This document shows positions 29,073 through 44,642 of a stretch of 62,653 bases of DNA, piece after piece. How positions within the stretch are numbered: the stretch's first letter is position 1; the number at the start of each line of letters is the position of its first letter. Under the pieces are notes generated by a model. The model was not told the DNA's origin and ran no database searches. It was given only the letters and a program-made list of their open reading frames with translations. The position numbers were made by a program, and so were the translations under genes. This stretch comes from Candidatus Kapaibacterium sp. (GTDB lineage: Bacteria > Bacteroidota > Ignavibacteria > Kapaibacteriales > UBA2268), in NCBI GenBank assembly GCA_938031175.1, contig CALHGZ010000015.1, positions 1 through 62,653 of the forward strand, written 5' to 3'.

Positions 29073-30677
29073 CTACATCATATCGAAATCAATAAATTTA
29101 TCTTTAATATCCACCATCGCATTAACAACTAATTCAACTAATCCACCATAGTATAAGCCAGATTTTTCTTTAGCTCCATAGAAATCAATTAAATCTCTAA
29201 TTTGTCCTTTACAATTCGAGCAAGGAGCACAAACATATTTAGGCACCTCCTTTCCCGGTGGCTCATCTTTAAATGCTTCGAGAATTTGTCTAAATTTTCT
29301 TCTCCCGCTTATGTGCATTCGCCAATCAAGGAAATTATGACCGGACATAATAGCAAATCCACTACCTCCGCCACAGCAGTAATTATTTACTCCGTGTGGT
29401 GTCATTTCTCTGAACTTAGGAGCAATATATCTTAATACTCTTCTTTGTGGTTCAATAACCCCCATTGCTCGTGTGATATTACAAGGATCGTGAAGAGTAA
29501 CGGGAAAATCATTTTTTGAGGGATCAAATTTAATACCGCGATTGAATACTATATCTTCGATAAGTGTCATAGCAGTTTCTCTTGGCACTGCCCCTTCGAA
29601 AATTCTGTCAGCGATAACCCCAAGAGCTTTACTTTCGTGTCCACATTCTCCCATAACTATTTTTTTCACTTTTAATTTCTTAGCAATTTCTAAATGTTTC
29701 ATAGCAATGCGAGCTAATTGAACGTCATCATAGAATAAGCCATAATTAACGCCATCGTAACCAACTAGCTCGCTGGACATTGTCCAGGTAATTCCAGCAG
29801 CGTCCAGAAGGATTGCAAAAGCAGCAGGATTATCTGGCCAAGCAAGAATTTCTCCAGCGTTATGTATTAATAATACTTCGGCTCCTTCAACATCCCATTT
29901 AGTTTCAACTTTGAAACCGACTCGTTCTGAAATATCCTCATCTATGAATTCCATGTTATCTTTTACAACCTCAGGATTCATACCAGTACTTGAACCGACA
30001 ATTAATTGTTGTACAGTACCTTTTTCGTGTAGTTCTTTGGGAGCTAAGCCCATTTCACTACTAAATATTTTGCGTAATTCATGTGTAATTAAGCCATTAT
30101 CAACGCCAATAGGACAACTCATTGCACATCTTCGGCATAATGTACAGCGATAGCTGAGTTCAAAAAGTTTTGATATGAGTTCCCAGTTAACTTCAATATC
30201 TCCTTGCATGAACTTTCGCATTAATGGATTTGTTGGTTTTACATATTTGAAATACAGTCGTCTGAGGATTTCTGCTCTGTATGTTGGTCTATATACTTCA
30301 TTATGGCCACTTTCTTCATAAATAGGGCATTCTTCGTTGCAGGTTTGACATTTTGCACAATGCTCCATCGAAAGAATTAATGGCTGCAAGAAAGTCCAGT
30401 TATTCTCTTTAGTAAATAATTTTTTAAGACCTGAGATAAATAAATTAATTAATCTTTCTTCCTCTTCCTTACTTGCAGGGCGCGACAAGCCGGTAGCGAG
30501 AACACCATCAGGTGAATCGCTTAGATTTTCCATTGTGGCTTTTGGTAATTTTTTAAAACCGGGTAAATTCCTGTAATCATCATAAGGCGGTGGTAATGGT
30601 GCAAGCTCTTGTAAGTCAATTTCTGTTAATTGGCCCGGTTTACTAATATCGGTTATTTTAATTATATTAGTTCTCAT
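29073..30677 (-). CDS. dsrK: DsrK, HdrD-like catalytic subunit of DsrMK
   Basis: DsrK is the cytoplasmic iron-sulfur subunit that reduces the DsrC trisulfide with electrons from DsrM. The 534-residue protein has two 4Fe-4S motifs, CAKCQTCNEECP and CTLCRRCAMSCP, and two CCG-type regions of the HdrD class. The second, with HDPCN...NNYCCGGGSGF, would hold the special 4Fe-4S cluster. The start at 30677 has AAAGGA upstream and overlaps the dsrM stop by 11 bp; an in-frame ATG 33 bp earlier lies deeper in dsrM and lacks such a site. It ends the 15-gene island. No dsrJ, dsrO or dsrP follows. Confidence 0.95.
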   Translation of the reverse strand: MRTNIIKITDISKPGQLTEIDLQELAPLPPPYDDYRNLPGFKKLPKATMENLSDSPDGVLATGLSRPASKEEEERLINLFISGLKKLFTKENNWTFLQPLILSMEHCAKCQTCNEECPIYEESGHNEVYRPTYRAEILRRLYFKYVKPTNPLMRKFMQGDIEVNWELISKLFELSYRCTLCRRCAMSCPIGVDNGLITHELRKIFSSEMGLAPKELHEKGTVQQLIVGSSTGMNPEVVKDNMEFIDEDISERVGFKVETKWDVEGAEVLLIHNAGEILAWPDNPAAFAILLDAAGITWTMSSELVGYDGVNYGLFYDDVQLARIAMKHLEIAKKLKVKKIVMGECGHESKALGVIADRIFEGAVPRETAMTLIEDIVFNRGIKFDPSKNDFPVTLHDPCNITRAMGVIEPQRRVLRYIAPKFREMTPHGVNNYCCGGGSGFAIMSGHNFLDWRMHISGRRKFRQILEAFKDEPPGKEVPKYVCAPCSNCKGQIRDLIDFYGAKEKSGLYYGGLVELVVNAMVDIKDKFIDFDMM

Positions 30678-31605
30678 TTTGATTTTCCTTTCCCGGAAAT
30701 GTTGATGCAATTGCTATCCAATTTTTTCTTCCGTCGGAACCTATATGTGGAGCTGCCCAAGTGACAGGATAATTCAAATATTCTGATACTTTTTGTGCAA
30801 TTTTGGACTTGGGCAAATTAGGTTCGTCTTCCCATTTAACTTTATGATATGTGAAGTATTTGCTAAAGAAATGAGTCATATGGGTAAAAGGTAAATATAT
30901 CATAAAAAATAATGTGGTGTATATATGTATGTAAGCAACTAATGGCAAAGAACTTATGTTACCAAATGTAAATAGGGCAGAGTAGAATGAAATAGAATTG
31001 TTGACAAAATTTTTATCTGTTACAGCCCATAATAATGCAGTGATATAAATTAAAGTTATTAGAATTATATTAAAATAATGACTCGCCGAGCTATACAACC
31101 TCAAATCAGTATCTACAATCCTTTGCATAAATAATCTAATGCCACCGATTATACCAATTACAGAGCCAATTATGGGTAACCACTTAATCAGATAAAATAT
31201 AATAGAAGCAATTAATCCTTGCTCCGCGTTGATGCTAAAACCGAAAAAGCCCAAAATGGTCGATAGAATTAAAAGGAACATATTGCCAATTAGTATATAT
31301 AAGCCCCAATGGAAGGCAAAAGAACCCAACCAGAGTGGCCGATTATGTTCCCAAATTGCTTTTAAAAATAATATCTCCGGGATCATAACTTTTAGTTCAG
31401 CAATTTTATCTTTTTCTCTTGGTTTAGTCCACCAATCAACTTCTTCAAGTATCGATCCACCATACTGTGCACGTCCCTTTTCATGCGGTACAGGATATAA
31501 TTCCCATCGGAGGTGAACGGGTGCAGATGCTATTTTATATCCGTAACGAATATTAAAGTATAAGAATACTATAACTGCTATATATGTTAAGATTAACAGT
31601 ATCAT
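30667..31605 (-). CDS. dsrM: DsrM, NarI-like haem b quinol-oxidising membrane subunit
   Basis: The 312-residue membrane protein has about five to six helices and a NarI-like haem b region. Histidines suited to haem binding lie in FAFHWGLYI, SASHYFN and VAYIHIYTTLFF / YLPFTHMTHFFSKYFTYH. It oxidises menaquinol and passes electrons to DsrK. Its gene follows dsrC by 140 bp, and the gap carries a hairpin. The start has an AAGGTAA site upstream. It overlaps dsrK, so the two are translationally coupled. Confidence 0.92.
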   Translation of the reverse strand: MILLILTYIAVIVFLYFNIRYGYKIASAPVHLRWELYPVPHEKGRAQYGGSILEEVDWWTKPREKDKIAELKVMIPEILFLKAIWEHNRPLWLGSFAFHWGLYILIGNMFLLILSTILGFFGFSINAEQGLIASIIFYLIKWLPIIGSVIGIIGGIRLFMQRIVDTDLRLYSSASHYFNIILITLIYITALLWAVTDKNFVNNSISFYSALFTFGNISSLPLVAYIHIYTTLFFMIYLPFTHMTHFFSKYFTYHKVKWEDEPNLPKSKIAQKVSEYLNYPVTWAAPHIGSDGRKNWIAIASTFPGKENQNEN

Positions 31606-31745: not shown

Positions 31746-32063
31746 TTAGACGCATCCAGTTGGTTTTGCTAAACCGGCAACTTTACAAGCACCTTTAGCT
31801 GGTCCAGATGGGAAAAGCTCGTAAATCTTTTTCAAGGAAAAGCCTGTTTCCTTGCAGAGCTTACGGATCATCGGTGCAATTCCATATTTTTGGTAATAAT
31901 CGCGCAGATAATTGATTACGTGCCAATGCTCATCGGTCAATTCATAGACATCCTCGGTTGATGCTAAGGCTAACGCAACTTTCTCATTCCATTCTTCAGG
32001 ATTTTCCATAAATCCATCTTCATCCACATTGATTTTTACATCACCATATTCAAATACTGGCAT
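31746..32063 (-). CDS. dsrC: DsrC sulfur-carrier protein
   Basis: DsrC carries the sulfur of sulfite reduction as a trisulfide between its two C-terminal cysteines and delivers it to DsrMK. The 105-residue protein has the full functional tail, GPAKGACKVAGLAKPTGCV, with C93 and the penultimate C104. This sets it apart from TusE-type paralogues that keep only the last cysteine. A strong site (GGAGGTC, 32067-32073) precedes the ATG. Downstream lies a hairpin before dsrM. Confidence 0.97.
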   Translation of the reverse strand: MPVFEYGDVKINVDEDGFMENPEEWNEKVALALASTEDVYELTDEHWHVINYLRDYYQKYGIAPMIRKLCKETGFSLKKIYELFPSGPAKGACKVAGLAKPTGCV

Positions 32064-32113: not shown

Positions 32114-33841
32114 TTATTTAATCCTTTCTATCTGGATAATTTGACCAGAAATAGGATCTATCATTTCTATGTAACCGCACGGACAATTTTCAGCGCATTT
32201 TTTGCAGCCAATGCATAATTCTAATTTCATTTTATAAGGTTGATATGTTTTGAACGGCGGTTTAACGAACACCTGATCCTGACACAAGCTCCAACAAGTT
32301 TGGCAATCGAAACATTCTCCACAGCTGAGACATCTTTTGCTTTCGCTTATTGCTTGTGTTTCATCGAATGTATATGTAATTTCGAGATTTAAGCTTTTTA
32401 ATCTTTCTTCTGCTGTTAGTATTTTGTGATGATTGCGTACTTTTTCTTCGTAAAAGCTAAATATCATTTTATCTTTTGTTGCAACATTTGAATAATCGGG
32501 CATTCTCAAATCCTGTCCCCTAAATTTAGTATCCATAATTTCTGCAGCCCGTCTTCCGTGATAAATGGCGTGGATTACTAATCCAAGCTGAATATTATCA
32601 CCGCCTGAATAAGTCCTATCATATTTTGTTGCAAACCATTCATCTACAGTAATCCATTCTCTTCCTTCTCTAAGCATTTCCAATCCGTTGAAATCCGGCT
32701 CTTGACTAATTGCAGCTACAACGAATGTACAATCTACATTAAAATATTCGCCCTCAATTGGAATTGGACGTCTACGTCCAGAACTGTCAGGTTCGCCTAA
32801 TTGCATTTTTTGGCATTTCATTGCAGAAATCTTATCACCATCTTTGATAAATTCAAGCGGTGCAGCTAGATAGTGGAATTGGACGCCTTCTTCTTCAGCT
32901 CCGATTATTTCCTCTTCTATCGCAGGCATCTCATTTCTTGTTCGTCGGTAAACTATGGTTACCTCAGCACCTAATCTGCGGGAGACTCTTGCTGCATCAA
33001 TAGCAGTGTCACCCCCACCAATAACTAAAACTTTACTGCCAACATCTACTTTTTCACCGGAATTAATTTTATTCAAAAATTCTGTGCCGGTCATAACATT
33101 ACTTGCGTCTTCATTAGGTATTCCGAGCAATCGTCCTTTGTGCGCTCCAATACCTACAAATACAGCATCGTATTTTTGCTTTAACTCATCATATTGTAAG
33201 TCTTTACCAATACGTGTGTTGCATATAATTTCAACTCCAAGATTTTCTATTCGTTTTATCTCTTTATCGAGTATTTCAGGTGGCAGTCTGTAATCGGGTA
33301 TTCCGTATCTGAGCATACCACCTGGTTTGGGCAAAGCTTCATAAACGATTACTGAATACCCTCGACGTGCTAATTGATATGCACAAGATAAACCCGCTGG
33401 ACCAGCTCCTATTATTGCGACTTTTTCTGATTTCTTTTCTGATGAGACCATAGGAACGGCGAAATTATGTTCTAATGCATAATCCCCAATGAATCGTTCC
33501 ATATCATTGATAGCAACTGAGGCATCCTTGTACTGTCTATTGCATTCCTTTTCGCAGGGATGTGGACATACCCTTCCGCATACGGAGAGGAATGGTGTTG
33601 TTTCAGCAAAAATTTCAAATGCTTGTTTATAAGCATCGTGATATGGCACATTTAAATCCTCAGCATGAGCTATTGTAGTGAGCATTTTTCGTATTTGATT
33701 GTGATTTGGGCAACCAATATTACAAGGCGGAATTTTTGGATCGTGCTTTGGCCTATATGGAGTTGTAACAACTCCACTTTGGCTGCCGCCACCCCTGCCT
33801 GTTAATGGTTTTAGTTTTTTCTTCTGAACTAATAGTCCCAC
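32114..33841 (-). CDS. dsrL: DsrL, NAD(P)H:acceptor oxidoreductase
   Basis: The 575-residue protein has the layout of the glutamate-synthase small-subunit family to which DsrL belongs. An N-terminal Fe-S region comes first (CNIGCPNH, CGRVCPHPCEKECNR), then a FAD Rossmann fold (VAIIGAGPAGLSCAYQLARRG), a NAD(P) fold (VLVIGGGDTAIDAARVSRRLG), and a C-terminal region with CLSCGECFDCQTCWSLC plus a 4Fe-4S ferredoxin motif (CIGCKKCAENCPCG). DsrL passes electrons between NAD(P)H and DsrAB. The start is GTG, fixed by AGGAGG 9 nt upstream; the ATG between them is out of frame. Next to dsrC and dsrAB the assignment is firm; the subtype (DsrL-1 or -2) needs a tree. Confidence 0.88.
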   Translation of the reverse strand: MGLLVQKKKLKPLTGRGGGSQSGVVTTPYRPKHDPKIPPCNIGCPNHNQIRKMLTTIAHAEDLNVPYHDAYKQAFEIFAETTPFLSVCGRVCPHPCEKECNRQYKDASVAINDMERFIGDYALEHNFAVPMVSSEKKSEKVAIIGAGPAGLSCAYQLARRGYSVIVYEALPKPGGMLRYGIPDYRLPPEILDKEIKRIENLGVEIICNTRIGKDLQYDELKQKYDAVFVGIGAHKGRLLGIPNEDASNVMTGTEFLNKINSGEKVDVGSKVLVIGGGDTAIDAARVSRRLGAEVTIVYRRTRNEMPAIEEEIIGAEEEGVQFHYLAAPLEFIKDGDKISAMKCQKMQLGEPDSSGRRRPIPIEGEYFNVDCTFVVAAISQEPDFNGLEMLREGREWITVDEWFATKYDRTYSGGDNIQLGLVIHAIYHGRRAAEIMDTKFRGQDLRMPDYSNVATKDKMIFSFYEEKVRNHHKILTAEERLKSLNLEITYTFDETQAISESKRCLSCGECFDCQTCWSLCQDQVFVKPPFKTYQPYKMKLELCIGCKKCAENCPCGYIEMIDPISGQIIQIERIK

Positions 33842-33850
33842 TTTTCATTA

Positions 33851-33856
33851 CCTCCT
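33851..33856 (-). promoter_or_regulatory. Ribosome-binding site fixing the GTG start of dsrL
   Basis: A perfect AGGAGG with 9 nt to the GTG at 33841. An ATG 3 nt after the site is in another frame, so GTG is the real start. Confidence 0.7.
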
Positions 33857-33904
33857 GGGAAACAATGCAGTTTCACCTATTTATTTGGACAAATAATTTT
33901 CAAA

Positions 33905-34342
33905 TTAATAGCCTCCGTATGGCACCATACCAAGTTTCACTTTATTTAATTCATCGAGTAATTTATCGTGCTTTTCTTCATCTTCGAGTAAATAGTTGAG
34001 CAGGTATTTTGCTATAGGGGATTTTGTTTGTTCCAATGCTTCTTTTGCCAATGCAATTGTTTTCTTTTCCATTTCGTCATGCTTTTCAATCATATCCCAA
34101 AAGCCTGCTAACTCGTCGTGTGTCATAGTAATTGGCTTTTGAGTAAAATGGTCAATGATTAGTTGTTGAACACGCCTGTGCATAGCTGAATCTTGACGAA
34201 TAATTTCCATTATAAGATGGACAAGAGGATTATCCGATTGTTTGATTATTTCGGTTGTACTTGTTATTGACTCATCTTCAATTTTTTGCCATTTTGCCAT
34301 TAATTCAACCAGCTTTTCGATTGCTTCTTTTTGAGTACTCAT
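33905..34342 (-). CDS. Ferritin-like / rubrerythrin-like four-helix protein
   Basis: The 145-residue all-helical protein has two E...H patterns typical of ferritin-like di-iron proteins: MEIIRQDSAMHRR (about residues 46-58) and LLEDEEKHDKLL (about 118-129), separated by IEKHDEMEKKTIALAKEAL, another E/H helix. No rubredoxin domain is attached. It sits between dsrN (21 bp) and dsrL (63 bp) with a clear AAGGAG site, so it belongs to the operon. It is not part of the canonical Dsr set; iron storage, oxygen or peroxide protection, or metal delivery are candidate roles. Confidence 0.65.
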   Translation of the reverse strand: MSTQKEAIEKLVELMAKWQKIEDESITSTTEIIKQSDNPLVHLIMEIIRQDSAMHRRVQQLIIDHFTQKPITMTHDELAGFWDMIEKHDEMEKKTIALAKEALEQTKSPIAKYLLNYLLEDEEKHDKLLDELNKVKLGMVPYGGY

Positions 34343-34363
34343 AAATAACTCCTTGTGTTGTTA

Positions 34364-35752
34364 CTAAACTTTTATTGAACTTTTGTATCTATGTGCTAAA
34401 TTAGTAAATCTATCAGCCCAATATTTCACCCCATTTGAATGAATGTGTATATATGATGCAAATACATTTTTGTAAACCAACCCATCTTTTTGATTAATAA
34501 TTCCAGTTCCGCGATTCAAATTCATAACTAAATTTACTTCACCTTCAACATTTCTAATTGTAGAGTAATGAAATTCGTGACCTCTAATGATTTCACCTTT
34601 TTCAAACCAGTTGTTGTTTTTAATTATTATGGCTTCACAATAGCCGTGACCTTGTGGTTTTTTATTTATTTCAATATGCAATGGCAAAACCTTACACATT
34701 TCATATTTTGCTTTTTGTGTTATTATTGAATCGGCTAGATACATTAAACCACCGCATTCTGCATAAATAGGCATACCTTCATCAGCAGCTTTTTTAATGT
34801 TAATCATCATTTCGCGATTTTGGCTTAGCTCTTTGACGCTGACTTCTGGGAAACCACCACCAATATAAAGACCGAAAATCTCAGGTAATTTATTATTTTC
34901 AATTGATGATATTTTAATGAGTTCTGCACCTGCCCGTTCTAAAGATTCAAGATTTTCGGGATAGTAAAAACTGAACGCATTATCATAAAAGTATCCAATT
35001 TTAATTTTTCCTTTTTTTTCTGTTTGATTTTCAGAAGGGTTAAATTCCATTAATGATGTATTATTAGCTAATTCAATTAATTTCTCTAAGTCAACATTAG
35101 ATTCGACTTGGTTCGCAATTTCATTTATAGCTAAATTAGCGATCTTGTATTCATTTGGAGTAATTAATCCTAAGTGTCGCGAAGGTAATATTCCCGATTG
35201 ACCCATTTGCGGAACAGCACCGATTACAGGTACCCCAGTATCATTTTCAATTGATTCTTTGACAACTCTGAGGTGCCTACCAGAGACCTGATTTAAAATT
35301 ACCGCCTTAATTTTTACTTTCTTATCCAATTCCAGGCAGCCAAGGACAAGAGCCGAGACTGTTCTTGTTACTTTTTTAGGGGTAATTACCAAAATTACAG
35401 GTGCATCAAGTAATTTTGCCAGTTCGGCAGTGCTATAAGTTCCAGATGAATCTAAGCCATCATATAATCCACGGTTTCCTTCAATCAGCGATATATCATT
35501 GCTGACGCTATTAGTTGTAAAAGAGCGTATGATAGTTTCTCGGTCCATCATATAAGCATCTAAATTTCTAACAACTGATTGTGATGCTATTGCAAGCCAC
35601 ATAGGGTCGATATAGTCAGGACCTTTTTTATAAACAGCTGTTGATAATCCTTTTCTTCTAAGAGCAACAGCCAATCCGCAAGTTAATATAGTTTTTCCCG
35701 AATCCCCGGACAAACCGGCTAATACTATTCTCGGGTAAGCTTTCATAGTCAT
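34364..35752 (-). CDS. dsrN: DsrN, sirohaem amidase (CbiA family)
   Basis: DsrN amidates sirohaem to the sirohaem amide used by DsrAB. The 462-residue protein has the CobB/CbiA layout. A P-loop-like ATP site comes first (VLAGLSGDSGKTILTCGLA, followed by KKGPDYIDPMWLA), and a class I glutamine amidotransferase domain follows, with the catalytic cysteine in YAECGGLMYLA and a C-terminal FASYIHIH. The same family makes cobyrinic acid a,c-diamide, but no cobalamin gene is near and the dsr context decides. A 105-bp gap with a hairpin separates it from dsrD. Confidence 0.9.
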   Translation of the reverse strand: MTMKAYPRIVLAGLSGDSGKTILTCGLAVALRRKGLSTAVYKKGPDYIDPMWLAIASQSVVRNLDAYMMDRETIIRSFTTNSVSNDISLIEGNRGLYDGLDSSGTYSTAELAKLLDAPVILVITPKKVTRTVSALVLGCLELDKKVKIKAVILNQVSGRHLRVVKESIENDTGVPVIGAVPQMGQSGILPSRHLGLITPNEYKIANLAINEIANQVESNVDLEKLIELANNTSLMEFNPSENQTEKKGKIKIGYFYDNAFSFYYPENLESLERAGAELIKISSIENNKLPEIFGLYIGGGFPEVSVKELSQNREMMINIKKAADEGMPIYAECGGLMYLADSIITQKAKYEMCKVLPLHIEINKKPQGHGYCEAIIIKNNNWFEKGEIIRGHEFHYSTIRNVEGEVNLVMNLNRGTGIINQKDGLVYKNVFASYIHIHSNGVKYWADRFTNLAHRYKSSIKV

Positions 35753-35762
35753 TTTTTAAGCT

Positions 35763-35838
35763 GACGGGGCTATTTTTTACTAATACTTTCAAATTTTCAA
35801 AGCTTAAACTCATAAATTACCATTGAAATAGCCCCGTC
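35763..35838 (-). promoter_or_regulatory. Intercistronic inverted repeat between dsrD and dsrN
   Basis: A perfect 13-bp pair, GACGGGGCTATTT (35763-35775) with AAATAGCCCCGTC (35826-35838), encloses a 50-nt AT-rich loop. It occupies most of the dsrD-dsrN gap. There is no U-run of terminator type, so transcript processing or stabilisation is likelier. Confidence 0.6.
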
Positions 35839-35857
35839 CTCATTTATTTATCCCACA

Positions 35858-36112
35858 TTAAATGTTTTTTGCACCTTCGTCGTGCGGAATTTCGATATAG
35901 CTGCCACCGAAATAAGTGTAAACCGCCCTTCCAGAATTTATTAGCTCCTTTATAGCATCTTTGCAAATCTGTTTATCACAGCGGTCTGCACCAAATAATT
36001 CGATACTGGCTTTTTGAAGATCTGTCGCTTTCCATTTTTTGATGCCCATAGTATCTTTGATCATTTTATACATGGCATCAGCGACTTCGCTTACAGATAC
36101 TTTCTCAGCCAT
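35858..36112 (-). CDS. dsrD: DsrD, winged-helix activator of DsrAB
   Basis: The 84-residue protein is winged-helix-like, with a helix rich in KKWKATDLQKASIELFG and a C-terminal wing RAVYTYFGGSYIEIP. It lies 17 bp after dsrB, the standard place of dsrD. DsrD binds and activates DsrAB in sulfate reducers and is regarded as a marker of the reductive pathway. Start at 36112 (MAEKV) has GGAGG 8 nt upstream; the longer frame from 36127 would overlap dsrB. Sequence identity to known DsrD is moderate by eye, so position is part of the case. Confidence 0.78.
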   Translation of the reverse strand: MAEKVSVSEVADAMYKMIKDTMGIKKWKATDLQKASIELFGADRCDKQICKDAIKELINSGRAVYTYFGGSYIEIPHDEGAKNI

Positions 36113-36129: not shown

Positions 36130-37212
36130 TTAGTAAGTTAAATGTACCGAACGTTTATATGTAAGTCCGGCATGTTTAAAGTCGTCAATATGTTCTTTCC
36201 TGAATTCAATTCCTGTTAACTTAAAGAATTTAGGCCAGCCAATCCTGTTAATCCATTCGCCGACACGTTCGTGTTTGTGTGCGTATTTTCTCCATACATC
36301 AATTATATTCACAACAGCATCGACAACCTCGGGCCATCGAGGTGGATTATTTGGAATATATGGTACTGCTAATTTTGAGAACATAGGTTCAGTTCTGGCA
36401 TTGGAAACTTTACCGCCAACCCAAATGGATAAACCGTCGTGATCAGGATCGTTTAATGGTAAAGATGGGCAGACAGTATAGCAGTTTGCACAATACATAC
36501 ATCTATCTTCATCAATCTCAACTGAAGGTTTACCATCCCAGGTAGATGGTCTAATTGCAGCTGTTGGACAGGAAGCAACTACGCTCGGTATTTCACATTG
36601 TTTTGGTAACAACTCCCGATTGATTTGTGGCGGTCTTGTATGAACGCCGAGTATGGCAATATCCGAGCAGTGAACAGCACCACACATATTAAGGCAGCAT
36701 GCAAGAGCTATCCTAATTTTTGCAGGCAAATCCATATTTTTATAATGTTCAATTAATTGATCCATTACCGCTTTTACTATTCCAGATGCATCAGTTGCAG
36801 CAGAATGGCAGTGTATCCAGCCCTGAGTGTGTACCATATTTGAAATTGAGTTGCCGGTTCCACCCACAACATGTCCTAATGCTGTTAACTCTTCTATAAG
36901 TGGATCAATATTATTGGGGTCAGTCAATAAGAATTCGATATTATTGCGAGATGTGAATCTTAAATATCCATTACTGTACTTTTCAGCTAATTGGGCGAAC
37001 ATTCTAATTTTATTTGTACTTAGCAATCTTGGTGTTGCTGCCCGTACTGAATATAATTTAGCGCCTGATTCTGCAGTATGAACCAGCACACCCGGTCGTG
37101 GTATTTCGTGATATTTCCATTTTCCATAATTTTCTTTAATTATGGGAGGTAAAAATTTTGAATAATGCGGTGGTCCGATATCTGTTAATCTCTGTTGAAC
37201 TTGATCTGACAT
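36130..37212 (-). CDS. dsrB: Dissimilatory sulfite reductase beta subunit
   Basis: DsrB carries the catalytically active sirohaem site of the alpha2-beta2 enzyme that reduces sulfite. The 360-residue protein has [30 protein letters not shown], the [11 protein letters not shown] cluster-binding stretch (about 172-182), [10 protein letters not shown] and the ferredoxin motif [12 protein letters not shown] (238-249). A conserved end follows ([14 protein letters not shown]). It is complete and of normal length. dsrA ends 46 bp before it. Confidence 0.97.
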
Positions 37213-37258: not shown

Positions 37259-38458
37259 TTATTCTTCTTCTTCTTCGAAAAAGCTTTCGTAGAAAATATA
37301 TGGATTCTCCCTCGGATGGGCGATCATCTCAGGCATTGGTGGTAATCCAACTGCTTCTATAAAGTTGCCCAAGCCCACTCTTTGGATAAATTCACCTATT
37401 CTCTCTCGGTTCTTACCCTCTTCGCACCATAAATCGAACATATTGTCAATTAATTCCCAGATCTCTAAATCATCAAAGGGTTCCTCAATTTTTATGAACG
37501 GTACTAATACTGAGGATAGAAGGGCGCCTTCTATAATAGGGGCTTTTGAACCAACAAGGATTGTAGCTCCACGATCTTTTCCCGGAGCTAAAGCCTTAGG
37601 CATAACATTTATGCAATGCATACAGTGGCGACAGCTTGAGTCATCAATTTTAAGCTCATTACCATTCCATTCAATGCATTTACCTGGGCAATTTAAAACT
37701 ATTTCTTTATAGATATCAACACCATTATTAGCATAATTTCTAACTTCTTCTTGATTAATCTGGATTTCGTCTCGCCAGGTTCCAATAATTGAAATATCTG
37801 CTCTTGCAATTGAGGCAACGCAATCGTTTGGACAACCAGACATCTTAAATTTCATTTTATATGGAAAAGCGGGACGGTGTAATTCATCCTGATAACGCAT
37901 TGTGATATAATAAGTAAGAGCCATAGTATCATAGCATGCCCATTCGCAACGAGCCATACCGCAACAACAACTTGGTGTACGAACTGCTGAACCAGAACCT
38001 CCAAGGTCAAAACCTAATTTTGTCAATTCGTTAAAAGCAGGCTCTAAATTTTCTGTTCGAGTACCAAGCAGAATAATATCTCCAGTTGAACCGTGCATAT
38101 TTGTTAATCCAGAACCGTATCGGTCCCATACATCGCATATTTGCTTTAATGCTTCTGCAGTATAAAACCATCCGGCGGGTTGATTTACTCTCATTGTGTG
38201 GAAATGTGATATGTCGGGATATTTTTCCGGTAGGTCTGTGTACCTTCCAATAACACCGCCACCATATCCCATCACTCCAACTATTCCGCCGTGTTTCCAA
38301 TGCCCCTTCCTTTCCTCATAGGATTGTTCGAGTAAGCCTAAGAGAGAATTAGCCATTTGATTTGTTTCAGCAGCCATTTTAATTTCTTTGACAAAACTTG
38401 GCCATTCTCCGCTTTCAAGTTGGTCAAGCAAGGGAGTTTCATACTTTTGATCTGCCAT
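37259..38458 (-). CDS. dsrA: Dissimilatory sulfite reductase alpha subunit
   Basis: The 399-residue protein is complete. Sirohaem-cluster cysteines lie in [14 protein letters not shown] (C165-x5-C171) and [10 protein letters not shown] (C209-x3-C213). The ferredoxin insert has NCPGKCIEW and [14 protein letters not shown] (C276, C279, C282). [21 protein letters not shown] is the conserved end. It starts with a GGAG site and lies 28 bp after qmoC. Overall resemblance is to reductive bacterial-type DsrA; a phylogeny is needed to place it. Confidence 0.97.
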
Positions 38459-38486: not shown

Positions 38487-39755
38487 TTAAATTGTTACTT
38501 TTTCTGTAACTTTATATTTATTGTAATTTTTTTCGAATATTTCTATTTTTGAATCTCGTCCGTACATCTTTAAATATGTCAAACCAAGTAATCTATATAT
38601 CATGTGTGCAAATTTAGAATAAGGCATATACCATAGTAAAAAATAGACTAAAACAAGGTGAACAAAATAAGTCGGATAAGCTACAACAGGAGTCTGCAAT
38701 AACCTAAAAAGTACGCAGCACATACCAGTAAAAGCTACTCCCCATACAATCCATAAAAAAAGCATATCATAATAGGTTGATTTACCCTCCCGCTCCTCTG
38801 TGACTTGCCTCTTAATAAGTAAGATTAATCCTCCAATTATCATTAATGTGCCTGATAGCAAGCCAAAGCTTTTGACCAATAGTCCTACAAATTCAGTTAC
38901 CTCATTTGGGTCATCAAAATTAACACCGCCTAATAGATAAAGTGGCATATTCATATGTTCAGGCAAAAATTCAGGGTAAAGACCGAGTTTAGCTCCAAAT
39001 AAATTCGCAACCACAATTGCTGTTGCTATTAATGCCCCGACAAAACCATAGAATATAAATAAATGACCATAATACCGTGCTGAATTGGTTGGGCATTTGT
39101 CGAATTTTTTGTGCAACATAAATTCCTTGAATACTTGAACCAATGATGGGATAAAATTTTGCACCTTTTTGTATTGATTAAATTTATGCAAATCATCCCA
39201 ATATCTTTTAAATCCGAGATAAGCGAGTGTAAAAACTAATACATTACCTGAAATAAATAGGACTTCAATTGGACCGTGGGCAATGAAATCTTTGTATTTA
39301 AATTGATGAATTGACCAATCTATTGCACTTAAATCGCCGCCTTGGGTAATAAGCATTAAGATGAAAATTAGAATTATTGGTAAAATCAATAAATAAGGCA
39401 GATATTTAATTTCTGATAGGGCTTTACCCATAAAAGCCGGTGTTGAATAGAAGCGGTATATATAACTTCTGACAGCTCCCATTAAATCAGCAGGTCTTGC
39501 ACCGCGTGGGCACATTTGGCTACAATCCATACAAGCATGACAAAGCCATATATCGGGGTCATGTATTAATTCCTGTTTTAGTCCCCAGCTTGCCTTAATC
39601 ATTTCTTTGCGAGGGAAAGAATTTTCAACAGGCGACAGAGAGCAAACCACCGAACATGTTGCGCATTGAAAGCATTTTTTCATCGTGTCGCCACCATACT
39701 TTTTCAAGTGGCGTATGAAATCAATATCGCTATTTAATTTTTTCCCGTTTGTCAA
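38487..39755 (-). CDS. qmoC: QmoC-like membrane subunit (HdrC + haem b fusion)
   Basis: QmoC links APS reductase to menaquinone. The 422-residue protein joins an HdrC-like iron-sulfur part ([12 protein letters not shown], about 28-39, and [12 protein letters not shown], about 73-84) to a six-helix NarI-like haem b part. The stretch [31 protein letters not shown] is characteristic of QmoC. The start is TTG, because an in-frame stop lies two codons upstream and no ATG fits; an AGG lies nearby. No qmoA or qmoB is in the window, although they normally precede qmoC. It sits between a YkgJ-like gene and dsrA. Confidence 0.85.
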
Positions 39756-39794: not shown

Positions 39795-40589
39795 TTATTG
39801 TATTGGCTTCATATATTCTTGTCTTAATTTCATTGTTTGTTCGCCGAACAGGCTAAATTTAAGCCATTCGAATCCAAATTTGAGCAATTCTACATCATCG
39901 TTTTTCATCTTTTTTACTTGTTCATCTTCTACTTCGAACCGTTTTAAAAATGAACTTCTAAAAACGAATTCACGGAATTTGTCTAGATCATAGCATACCA
40001 TATAGAACATTTCTAATTTTACTGGTTCGAGGATTTTCCCATTAGTGAAAAAAGGATGGCAGGATATCTCTTTGAACTTTTCACCGAGTTCAGTGTATTC
40101 ATTAACTCCTTGGTCGTCTTTCCATTTGAGAATAGTCCACTCTTTATTCTGGGTAAATCCTTGACAAATTGGTTCTTTGAGCAAGAAATAAAATTCATCT
40201 TGCTCATTACTTATAATATCAGATGGTGAAGCCATACCAATAGGATACATTCTGCAAGCCCAGGGCCTATCCTCATAAACTATACAACCATCTTTGCTCA
40301 AAAGTGGACAATCGAGAGTATCATTTTCCATTTTTAGCATTACAATAGGATGTTTGAGATTTGCCTCCACAGGTAAAATTGTATAATTTTCCAAAAATTC
40401 AGAAGAGCTGATTCCTAGGCGATTTTTTAATCGGATTATGTCATAGGGCGTTAAGAATATATTTACGTCATTGCAACATTTATTAAAGCAACTCAATCCT
40501 TTATGACATTCAAAGCTAAATTTATCTTTTTCCTCCAATCTGGGGTATTCTTTAAGTATGATTTTATTTAATCTCTCTAAGTTATTCAT
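39795..40589 (-). CDS. YkgJ-family cysteine-cluster protein
   Basis: The 264-residue protein has the YkgJ (Fe-S or zinc-chelating) cysteine pattern: SFECHKGLSCFNKCCNDVNIFLTPYDIIRLKNRLG and later LDCPLLSKDGCIVYEDRPWACRMYPIG. The eight or so cysteines could hold a cluster. The family is widespread and its function is unsettled. It lies 18 bp after the zinc-ribbon gene and 39 bp before qmoC, so it is part of the sulfate-reduction operon, in the place where qmoA and qmoB are usually found. It is not a flavoprotein and cannot replace them directly. Confidence 0.75.
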   Translation of the reverse strand: MNNLERLNKIILKEYPRLEEKDKFSFECHKGLSCFNKCCNDVNIFLTPYDIIRLKNRLGISSSEFLENYTILPVEANLKHPIVMLKMENDTLDCPLLSKDGCIVYEDRPWACRMYPIGMASPSDIISNEQDEFYFLLKEPICQGFTQNKEWTILKWKDDQGVNEYTELGEKFKEISCHPFFTNGKILEPVKLEMFYMVCYDLDKFREFVFRSSFLKRFEVEDEQVKKMKNDDVELLKFGFEWLKFSLFGEQTMKLRQEYMKPIQ

Positions 40590-40607: not shown

Positions 40608-40868
40608 TTAAGTTTTAGCAATTAGATCTTTCCAAGTGTAGGGAGAAGAAACCGGAATAGGTCCTTCATCGCCATAAAATGGATTATATTTATATCTGTA
40701 TGAGGCAGTGACATTGTAATGCGTTCGCATCCAATCCCAGCCACGTACATAGTATCCACATTCATCATTGAAACATACATATAAATATTCGCAATTAAAA
40801 TCTGAATCAGGTGGAAGTAAAACTTTTTGTAATTCAGTACCGCAGTATTTACATTTTATCTTTTCCAT
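40608..40868 (-). CDS. Small zinc-ribbon protein of sulfate-reduction clusters
   Basis: The 86-residue protein has one zinc ribbon (CKYC ... CFNDEC) and a conserved YYVRGWDWMRTHYNVTASYRY core. Similar small ogr/Delta-like zinc-finger proteins occur in many sulfate reducers; this recollection should be checked. The start at 40868 has AAAGGAA 6 nt upstream, while a longer frame from 40907 lacks one. It follows aprA by 105 bp (with a hairpin) and precedes the YkgJ-like gene. Role unknown; redox sensing or cluster assembly are guesses. Confidence 0.7.
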   Translation of the reverse strand: MEKIKCKYCGTELQKVLLPPDSDFNCEYLYVCFNDECGYYVRGWDWMRTHYNVTASYRYKYNPFYGDEGPIPVSSPYTWKDLIAKT

Positions 40869-40937
40869 TTTATTCCTTTCTTTGTTAAATATAAAATTTA
40901 ACCGCACATGATTTGCTTTTAAATTTTATATTTAATT

Positions 40938-40964
40938 GGCACCTGTGGTGGAACCACAGGTGCC
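40938..40964 (-). promoter_or_regulatory. Intercistronic hairpin after aprA
   Basis: A perfect 12-bp, GC-rich stem (GGCACCTGTGGT 40938-40949 with ACCACAGGTGCC 40953-40964) with a 3-nt loop, 9 bp after the aprA stop. No U-run follows. It probably stabilises sat-aprBA mRNA or lowers read-through into later genes. Confidence 0.65.
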
Positions 40965-40973
40965 AGAATTTAA

Positions 40974-43418: not shown

Positions 43419-44642
43419 TTATTCGCCGGTTGCAGCTTTGTGCAACTTGATTTCCACTTTTTCAGTCAAACCTGTGTAATATTCACGCAAAATTTCCAAA
43501 ACTTCTGGTCTACTGAATTCTTTGGGAACTTCTTTTCCTTCTGACAATGCTTTTCTTAGCATAGTACCGCTCAATAGTAATCTATCTTCCTTTGTATGTG
43601 GGCAGGTCTTCATTGATGCCATTCCTTCGCATTTATAGCACCAGAAGGTCCAGTCAATTTTTAATGGTTTGCATAGCAATGCACCTTCCCAAAGTTCGTC
43701 AAATATGTCTTGAGCTTCGAAAGCGCCATAGTAATTACCGACGCCAGCGTGATCTCGGCCTATAATCATATGAGTGCAGCCAAAATTCTGTCTGAACAAT
43801 GCATGGAGTAGTGCTTCGCGAGGTCCTGCATATCGCATATCCAATGGATAGCCACCTTGGATTACAGTATCTTTTACGAAATACTTTTCAACAAGAACAT
43901 TGATACAGCGAACTCTAACATCAGCTGGTATATCGCCGGGTTTTAGCTTTCCAACTAATTGATGAATATACAATCCATCAGATACTTCTAAAGCAATTTT
44001 GGCTAAATATTCATGACTTCTGTGCATAGGATTTCGCAATTGTAATGCTGCGATTGTTTTCCAACCTTTCTCTGCAAATAATTTTCTTGATTCAGCAGGT
44101 CTTTGATAAACATCTTTGAATTCGATAGGGAATGTAGCTTCCGATAATACTTTCACTGGACCAGCCAAGTTTATTTCTGCTTGGTCCATAACCATTTTCA
44201 CACCGGGGTGTTCGAGGTCTGTTGTTTTGTAAACGTGTTTGCATTCAAACTCTTTGTCAATCTTGTACTTTTCCTCGACCTTCATCGTCGCCATAATTTC
44301 ATCATACTCATCAGAATAAAGAGCAACCTCATCGCCGATTTTAATTTTATCGGCAGTTTCTTTGTCACAGGATACTGTTACTGGTATGGGCCAGAAAAGT
44401 CCATTTTTACTAGGCATTCTCATTTCCGAACATACGCTTTTCCAGTCTTCGTAACCCATAAATCCCCTTAGGGGGGTAAATCCACCGATTCCCATCATTA
44501 TCAAATCACCGGTTTCACGGCTTGTGATATTTACACGAAGCAGCTTCTCTGCCTTTTTCTTTTCTTCTGCCAATTCCTCACCTTTGAGTAATAATTCAAT
44601 TAATTCAGGGCTTCCATGGGGGCTGATTAATTTTACTGCCAT
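43419..44642 (-). CDS. sat: Sulfate adenylyltransferase (ATP sulfurylase)
   Basis: Sat activates sulfate to APS with ATP. The 407-residue homomeric-type enzyme has the ATP/sulfate motifs [10 protein letters not shown] (201-210) and GRDHAG (295-300). It also has the zinc-binding element [31 protein letters not shown] found in many bacterial and archaeal dissimilatory enzymes. It is the first gene of the island, with a GGAG site 8 nt before the ATG. No fused APS kinase is present, consistent with a dissimilatory role. Confidence 0.97.

Follow-up and report, generated by a model that had tools for sequence, protein, structure and literature searches.

A predicted NADPH-type DsrL and a DsrD-like, probably winged-helix protein in a putative sulfate-reduction operon of Candidatus Kapaibacterium

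Introduction

DsrD and DsrL serve as markers of the direction of sulfur metabolism, and a dsr island of Candidatus Kapaibacterium sp. raises the question of what it means when a DsrL and a small DsrD-like protein are encoded together beside dsrAB. The window analysed here is the whole stretch of 62,653 nucleotides that forms contig CALHGZ010000015.1 (C15) of assembly GCA_938031175.1, a genome of 2.69 Mb in 18 contigs and 97% complete. On its minus strand the genes follow the order sat-aprB-aprA-zinc-finger-like-CxxCxxCC-qmoC-dsrA-dsrB-[84-aa]-dsrN-[145-aa]-dsrL-dsrC-dsrM2-dsrK2, all co-oriented and with intergenic gaps of -44 to 140 bp. An initial annotation placed DsrD and DsrL in this operon and proposed that NAD(P)H may feed electrons directly to a reductive DsrAB. 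The co-oriented genes and the DsrL, which passes the family tests, bear out the first claim in part, while the supposed DsrD, a protein of 84 residues, fails the DsrD profile PF08679. The second claim stands as regards a genuine DsrL and a reductive DsrAB and is narrowed as regards the donor, which is predicted from a YRR motif to be reduced nicotinamide adenine dinucleotide phosphate (NADPH) and not NADH. The combination of DsrD and DsrL in one operon is not new, having been described already in relatives that fall in this family-level group. Papers are cited here for those parts of their text that were available.

Because the genome combines a genuine DsrL of NADPH type and a reductive DsrAB with a lone DsrE-fold protein and no TusA match, direct electron supply from NADPH to DsrAB appears to be the best reading. 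The best explanation of the whole, which we hold with somewhat better than even confidence, would be a Kapabacterial sulfate-reduction operon in which NADPH feeds DsrL, DsrL feeds reductive DsrAB, the DsrC trisulfide is reduced through DsrMK(JOP) and the 84-residue protein acts as an activator.

The protein encoded after dsrB

The 84-residue protein is encoded by an open reading frame (ORF) at 35858-36112 on the minus strand, stop codon included, which is read from an ATG, has an alternative TTG start five codons upstream and begins 17 bp past dsrB. Relatives were sampled as the best 80 of 211 loci by DsrB similarity to the window, a sample that is biased towards its kin. Within it, 78 loci have 400 bp or more of DNA downstream of dsrB, and in 74 of them a homologous ORF adjoins that gene, a recurrence beyond chance (73 by script, plus L078, where the ORF start was over-extended; the exceptions are L083, L091, L094 and L101). 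The alignment of this family, A1, holds 62 members with 43-82% identity to the window protein and is highly conserved, with L32, K34, K51, A53, L57, Y65, Y67, G69, G70 and P76 invariant. The predicted structure (predicted local distance difference test, pLDDT, 88.4) has three helices and two short strands, the pattern of a winged helix. Foldseek and VIA searches with this model returned generic winged helices; no DsrD entries stand among the 50 matches listed in the fold search, an absence that does not exclude the fold. The small gene after dsrB has been published as dsrD in relatives, and the Acidobacterial form was so named by Hausmann 2018 (PMC6018796) from shared hydrophobic residues. Classical DsrD, represented by D. 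vulgaris (PDB 1ucr) and by locus L123, is likewise a small winged helix encoded next to dsrAB, and an alignment of the core places K-K-F/W, D-L/F/V, Y and GS positions in common. The 84-residue form differs in a longer helix 2-3 region, in having YTYFGGS instead of YWSSGSTTM, and in failing PF08679.

We read the 84-residue protein, on sequence grounds, as a remote, separate DsrD-like subfamily that does not belong to PF08679. Several results weigh against placing it with DsrD, and some of them also favour the alternative that an unrelated winged helix, for instance a DNA-binding regulator of the operon, has taken the place of dsrD after dsrB. At E<=10 Pfam returns nothing for the protein, so the identification as DsrD, for which the initial annotation had itself named the DsrD profile as the check, is formally refuted. 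A genome-wide search with PF08679 came back empty, as did its 14 controls, although it gives a match in another genome. The profile is touched by only three of the 62 family members, weakly (12.9-14.7 bits, best E 0.039, cut-off 24.2), and none exceeds the cut-off; as controls, the classical DsrD of L123 and that of D. vulgaris obtain 78.2 and 118.2 bits. The Hop2/TBPIP winged helix, in contrast, is matched by 35 of the 62, with a best E of 0.00014. The A1 profile does not pick out D. vulgaris DsrD, which obtains 3.4 bits at rank 90, below its best shuffle (8.8). A comparison of A1 with classical DsrD by hhalign gives a probability of 7.6% and an E of 0.0046, with 19% identity over 54 columns, and DsrD is not among the PDB sequences matched by the A1 profile at E<=10.

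Other results point the other way, and we consider an unrelated winged helix doubtful, although it deserves to be taken seriously. Adjacency to dsrB in so many loci and in many phyla is more what one expects of a subunit-like partner than of a regulator. The winged helix is also the fold of classical DsrD, and a control fold search with the L123 model, which recovers 1ucr and 1wq2 among its first four ranks, has a Hop2-Mnd1 chain in ninth place. The alignment of the two forms extends over the whole core, with the positions named above in common. Among 4763 sequences (ORFs, shuffles and two classical DsrD), the top match of the A1 profile outside the family, though a weak one, is the classical DsrD of L123, whose 11.4 bits exceed all 499 scored shuffles of itself (best 9.7). 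A profile of the two classical sequences, on which the homology test as a whole rests, was also run against the ORFs of the sampled loci; family members make up 16 of its 21 rows at E<=10 (two of them from duplicate loci), the top 13 included.

A single genome, G454 (L123:1477-1707 and L146), contained a classical dsrD, which lies upstream of dsrA; no dsrL was found there in 19 kb. G454 belongs to the phylum of L076 and L115 (Myxococcota by tree label), so that classical DsrD and the DsrD-like form occur within one phylum. PF08679 scores above its cut-off in none of the eight genomes reached through the loci, in one of two genomes in the class of G454, and, in two overlapping samples of 95 and 235 genomes from a single phylum, in G454 only. 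With the 84-residue protein as query, 296 genomes sampled evenly across the phylum of the window yielded only the protein itself, and sampling of that kind is not informative about the family. No relative turned up in viral contigs, and in plasmids there was none for DsrD or DsrB. Surveys that rely on Pfam only would score these sulfate reducers as DsrD-negative.

DsrL and the source of its electrons

The nicotinamide-binding domain of the window DsrL is intact, with GGGDTA and, at residues 298-300, the YRR motif. Inspection of this site had been proposed in the initial annotation as a guide to NADPH preference, and it agrees with that preference: the window DsrL is predicted to use NADPH rather than NADH. 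Across 72 aligned full-length rows YRR occurs in 60, namely the window, all 58 other dsr-linked rows and the GltA-type paralogue of the same genome; all 12 Chlorobia DsrL rows are without it and have SGV (8), AGV (3) or SAV (1). Its presence in the GltA-type paralogue means that the motif tells the cofactor and not the family, a point to be counted against leaning on it for identity. A C-terminal two-cluster ferredoxin domain of a kind that GltD lacks, with ten cysteines between residues 504 and 553, is kept in 54-55 of the 58 rows and in 12 of 12 Chlorobia rows, and is a gap in the GltA-type paralogue.

Three Acidobacteria carry, between dsrB and dsrC, a DsrL of only 397-401 residues (L083:5806-7011, L091:5834-7027 and L094:2930-4135). 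This short form keeps the N-terminal cluster domain, the GAGPAG start of the Rossmann fold for flavin adenine dinucleotide (FAD) and the C-terminal ferredoxin cysteines. An in-frame loss of ~165 residues, equivalent to ~253-418 of the window protein, has removed GGGDTA, YRR and GGD, and ~20 other residues stand in their place. The lost GGD is presumably the second FAD motif. No separate copy of the missing NAD(P)H domain was found in the 7.5-15.8 kb around each locus (best stray match E 0.1). The proteins of L083 and L094 are 96% identical and both share 72.5% with that of L091, which indicates two lineages of short DsrL. Their ratios of nonsynonymous to synonymous substitution (dN/dS) are 0.085-0.159, and DsrB gives 0.020-0.080 for these pairs. 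The short gene is therefore under constraint, though less than DsrB. Judged from its sequence, the short DsrL cannot be a normal NAD(P)H oxidoreductase. Its place beside dsrAB counts against a general role of DsrL in NAD(P)H supply, which is not universal among the relatives of DsrL, and it breaks the assumption that DsrL equals NAD(P)H-linked sulfite reduction. Hausmann 2018 (PMC6018796) described the Acidobacterial DsrL as shorter than that of A. vinosum and with the same functional domains; in the available text of that paper and of PMC6338057 we found no mention of a domain-deleted DsrL. According to Diao 2023 (PMC10591310), some published DsrL sequences were missed by their profile, and these might include short forms.

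The short DsrL lends itself to a different view of the enzyme, in which DsrL would mainly relay electrons to DsrAB through its iron-sulfur clusters and flavin without a fixed donor, NADPH being one of several and ferredoxin-like donors entering at the C-terminal clusters. In its favour are the two lineages in which the NAD(P)H site is gone while the start of the FAD Rossmann fold and the ligands of the clusters persist under constraint. The intact NADP domain of the window protein speaks against it here, and the short form has also lost GGD and so may be a specialised derivative; we regard the relay as unlikely. Slightly less likely still is its combination with a different origin for the 84-residue protein, in which the winged helix of the dsrAB-D-N-L lineages is no drifted DsrD but a separate activator family that arrived with DsrL, and DsrAB, the 84-residue protein and a DsrL relay with a swappable donor form the conserved unit. 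If that were true, the Acidobacteria without the NAD(P)H domain of DsrL would demonstrate, as an experiment of nature, that the relay can outlast NAD(P)H. The preferred reading for the window remains supply from NADPH, and comparison of the long and short DsrL makes the electron source of DsrAB testable.

Direction of the pathway

The window DsrB is 69-82% identical to those of the 80 related loci and at most 50% to Chlorobia rows, and its DsrA 65-84% to reductive loci and at most 46% to Chlorobia. By these comparisons the window DsrAB is of the reductive kind. DsrC retains both C-terminal cysteines. The initial annotation had noted that DsrEFH is absent from the island, and this extends to the genome as far as searched. 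The genome-wide search with PF02635 returned one match, a lone ORF of 156 residues with a lipoprotein-like start, where DsrE plus DsrF should give two. No DsrEFH set was thus found in the 97% complete assembly with PF02635 alone, DsrH (PF04077) and type II DsrEFH profiles lying outside the search, and TusA had no genome match at E<=0.01 (11 of 14 controls positive). The lone DsrE-fold ORF, at L129:2971-3441 on contig C5, has a CPTC motif and adjoins an ORF named by eye as a TauE/SafE-like permease.

The DsrMK/DsrC route, which the initial annotation had given as a second path for electrons, needs to be located differently. The DsrMK of the island is a second copy, and a full DsrMKJOP is encoded on contig C9, where DsrM, K, J, O and P all score above their cut-offs (DsrK with 724 bits); a system of DsrMK only, without DsrJOP, is rejected on that evidence. 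The ORF preceding dsrMKJOP on C9 is called DsrT-like from its place alone and has no NCBIfam match.

Could the operon run, or be able to run, in reverse, with DsrAB oxidising sulfide or DsrC-persulfide and DsrL reducing NADP+? The DsrL enzymes of Loffler 2020 (PMC7596348) are bidirectional in vitro and some sulfur oxidisers use DsrL-2, and, as type II DsrEFH illustrates, standard profiles can miss oxidative components (PMC13293266). The reductive kind of DsrAB, the lack of a TusA match and the single lipoprotein-like DsrE-fold ORF are at odds with this, as is the report that Thermonerobacter expresses its copies of these genes at night, when oxygen is low (PMC6338057). Reverse operation seems to us quite improbable.

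Distribution of the pair among relatives

Co-occurrence was counted over the stretch read for each locus, wherever the gene lies on it. The 80 loci hold a DsrD-like ORF in 77, a DsrL in 65 and both in 63, among which L091 counts with its short DsrL. Of the 58 loci that have 5 kb or more of downstream DNA, 52 carry both. The pair of DsrD-like protein and DsrL is the rule among these 80 DsrB-selected relatives. The six of the 58 without DsrL by this test are L044, L076, L092, L101, L116 and L119, and L092 holds a DsrL fragment. A DsrB search of 54 genomes of the family found 14 above the cut-off.

Some loci are arranged differently. In L116:12180-13237 and L119:13331-13900 (Acidobacteriota) a DsrD-like gene and dsrN are present, no dsrL was found, and other ORFs occupy the place expected for it. 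In two Omnitrophota loci (L064:1568-3274 and L108:5773-7458) dsrL lies upstream of dsrA rather than downstream of dsrN.

Family assignment of DsrL

The 575-residue protein is a genuine DsrL on the evidence of its sequence. It obtains 564.6 bits with PRK12771/NF009410 (cut-off 516) and, below the cut-off of 471.75, 357.1 bits with gltA; for comparison, one Chlorobia DsrL scores 739.1 bits against NF009410. The GltA-type paralogue of the same genome, on contig C7, has the reverse pattern, with gltA at 601.2 and PRK12771 at 400.7 bits. A quick tree of the 72 rows, a check that the initial annotation had proposed, put the window with the DsrL of reductive operons, in a starred set of 14 rows (support 99) from Kapabacteria, other Bacteroidota, Ignavibacteriota and Kryptoniota records, and the Chlorobia separately (support 100). 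The alignment and tree leave out duplicate loci, cut Chlorobia rows (L022-L039) and 11 rows of fewer than 440 residues, the three short Acidobacterial forms included. Two points tell against giving this tree much weight: it is a quick one, and its only GltA-type row (L131) has a long branch that joins the DsrL-2 side at its base in an uncertain position, so that the tree does not root DsrL. The label DsrL-2C rests on published definitions, since the tree had no full-length DsrL-1A, DsrL-2A or DsrL-2B reference; the only candidate, L139, is a fragment and was omitted.

That the protein is instead a glutamate-synthase small subunit or NfnB-like enzyme, present by chance of location, is rejected as extremely improbable: YRR is common to both and its identity to its own GltA-type paralogue (41%) exceeds the median to Chlorobia DsrL (35%), but the profile scores on both sides of their cut-offs, the ten-cysteine ferredoxin that the paralogue does not have and the finding that, where enough DNA is available, 52 of 58 loci encode a relative on one stretch with dsrAB decide against it, the tree not settling the matter.

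The L139 fragment (L139:1078-1516), of 146 residues and Chlorobia-family origin, is 44% identical to the window over its length, compared with 34-39% for other Chlorobia rows, and is perhaps a DsrL-2A by sequence.

Organisation of the island

The features of the island, all on the minus strand, are as follows.

43419..44642, -, sat, ATP sulfurylase; named from operon context and sequence, 87-90% identity to an ORF in L040-L042 and L046
42903..43343, -, aprB; named from context, 87-91% identity to L040-L042 and L046
40974..42851, -, aprA; named from context, 86-89% identity to L040-L043 and L046
40608..40907, -, small conserved zinc-finger-like protein in the aprA/qmoC interval; Pfam Ogr_Delta 27.1 bits, cut-off 26.3
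39795..40589, -, YkgJ-type CxxCxxCC protein; Pfam CxxCxxCC 38.5 bits, cut-off 23
38487..39755, -, qmoC; NF038018 393.1 bits, cut-off 300
37259..38458, -, dsrA; TIGR02064 566.3 bits, cut-off 392.85
36130..37212, -, dsrB; TIGR02066 504.7 bits, cut-off 341.5
35858..36112, -, 84-residue DsrD-like winged-helix protein; named from its place after dsrB, family A1 (62 members) and the model, with no PF08679 match
34364..35752, -, dsrN, CobB/CbiA-type amidotransferase; GATase_3 138.3 bits, CbiA 51.2 bits
33905..34342, -, 145-residue ferritin-like protein; Rubrerythrin E 0.019, below cut-off
32114..33841, -, dsrL, type 2, 575 residues, GTG start; PRK12771/NF009410, YRR motif, cysteines and tree
31746..32063, -, dsrC with both C-terminal cysteines; TIGR03342 122.3 bits, cut-off 53.5, C-terminus inspected
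30667..31605, -, dsrM2, cytochrome b subunit paralogue; Nitrate_red_gam 33.6 bits, cut-off 22.9; NF038037 DsrM 25.6, cut-off 300
29073..30710, -, dsrK2, heterodisulfide-reductase-like paralogue; NF045796 DsrK 315.5 bits, below cut-off 400

The published role of dsrN is siroheme amidation. Homologues of the 145-residue ferritin-like protein precede dsrL in 11 other loci of several phyla, with no curated family above cut-off, and the protein could be a component of the DsrL unit that deals with oxygen or iron. A hairpin (40936-40966) with a stem of 14 pairs stands between aprA and the gene for the zinc-finger-like protein and may set sat-aprBA apart from the qmoC-dsr genes; terminator-like sites are overall little above chance in the window (15 against 10.7, standard deviation 3.2), and promoter-like sites are at chance level (60 against 65.6).

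Proposed mechanism

We propose that the island is a dissimilatory sulfate-reduction operon. DsrL would oxidise NADPH at its FAD/NADP domain, a step suggested by the YRR motif together with the Desulfurella enzyme (PMC7596348), and the electrons would pass through the N- and C-terminal [4Fe-4S] clusters of DsrL to reductive DsrAB. DsrAB would reduce sulfite and load the sulfur onto DsrC, and the resulting DsrC trisulfide would then be reduced through DsrMK(JOP). The 84-residue protein, as a remote relative of DsrD, may bind DsrAB and raise its turnover, by analogy with classical DsrD, an allosteric activator of DsrAB according to papers that cite the original work. The gene order, the family of DsrL, its NADPH motif and iron-sulfur ligand pattern, the DsrC cysteines, the lone DsrE-fold match, the lack of a TusA match and the DsrMKJOP set are read from the genome, whereas electron flow, direction and activation are inferred. 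It detracts from this scheme that no biochemistry of any Kapabacterial DsrABL was found in the literature available to us.

Comparison with known systems

The nearest named dsr relatives are Kapabacteria-type records, with DsrB identities of 74-82% to L040-L043, L046 and L048; against L043, the Chocolate Pots record, DsrB is 78% and the 84-residue protein 56% identical. Thiel 2019 (PMC6338057) described the operon of Ca. Thermonerobacter thiotrophicus and called the presence of dsrD plus dsrL unusual. Its order, sat-aprBA-hyp-hyp-qmoC-dsrAB-dsrD-dsrN-hyp-dsrL-dsrC-dsrM2-dsrK2 with dsrTMKJO elsewhere, is identical to that of the window, the zinc-finger-like gene (40608..40907) and the CxxCxxCC gene (39795..40589) taking the positions of the first and second 'hyp' genes. 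The two organisms fall in separate genera by genome grouping, and dsrP, which lies with dsrTMKJO in the window genome, is elsewhere in theirs. Night-time, low-oxygen expression of the dissimilatory sulfur genes was reported for Thermonerobacter in the same paper.

Direct electron supply from NADPH was proposed by Loffler 2020 (PMC7596348) from the Desulfurella enzyme; that work defines DsrL-2 by YRR and finds the Desulfurella DsrL-2 to be NADP(H)-specific. The DsrL-2 of Desulfurella amilsii resembles the window protein in YRR, flavin, N- and C-terminal [4Fe-4S] clusters and a reductive DsrAB partner, whereas organism and operon differ and NADPH use by the window enzyme is a prediction.

The pairing itself is widespread in published surveys. 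Both dsrD and dsrL were reported in Acidobacteria by Hausmann 2018 (PMC6018796), a clade dominated by DsrD plus DsrL without DsrE is described in PMC11406059, and Diao 2023 (PMC10591310) listed DsrD together with DsrL-2 for five Kapabacteria of UBA2268 and across many other phyla. DsrD was scored in the last study with another profile set (Zhou 2022), whereas PF08679 misses the window form. With the DsrL-2C systems of that survey the window has in common a reductive DsrAB, a YRR-bearing DsrL, a small gene after dsrB and no DsrEFH set found.

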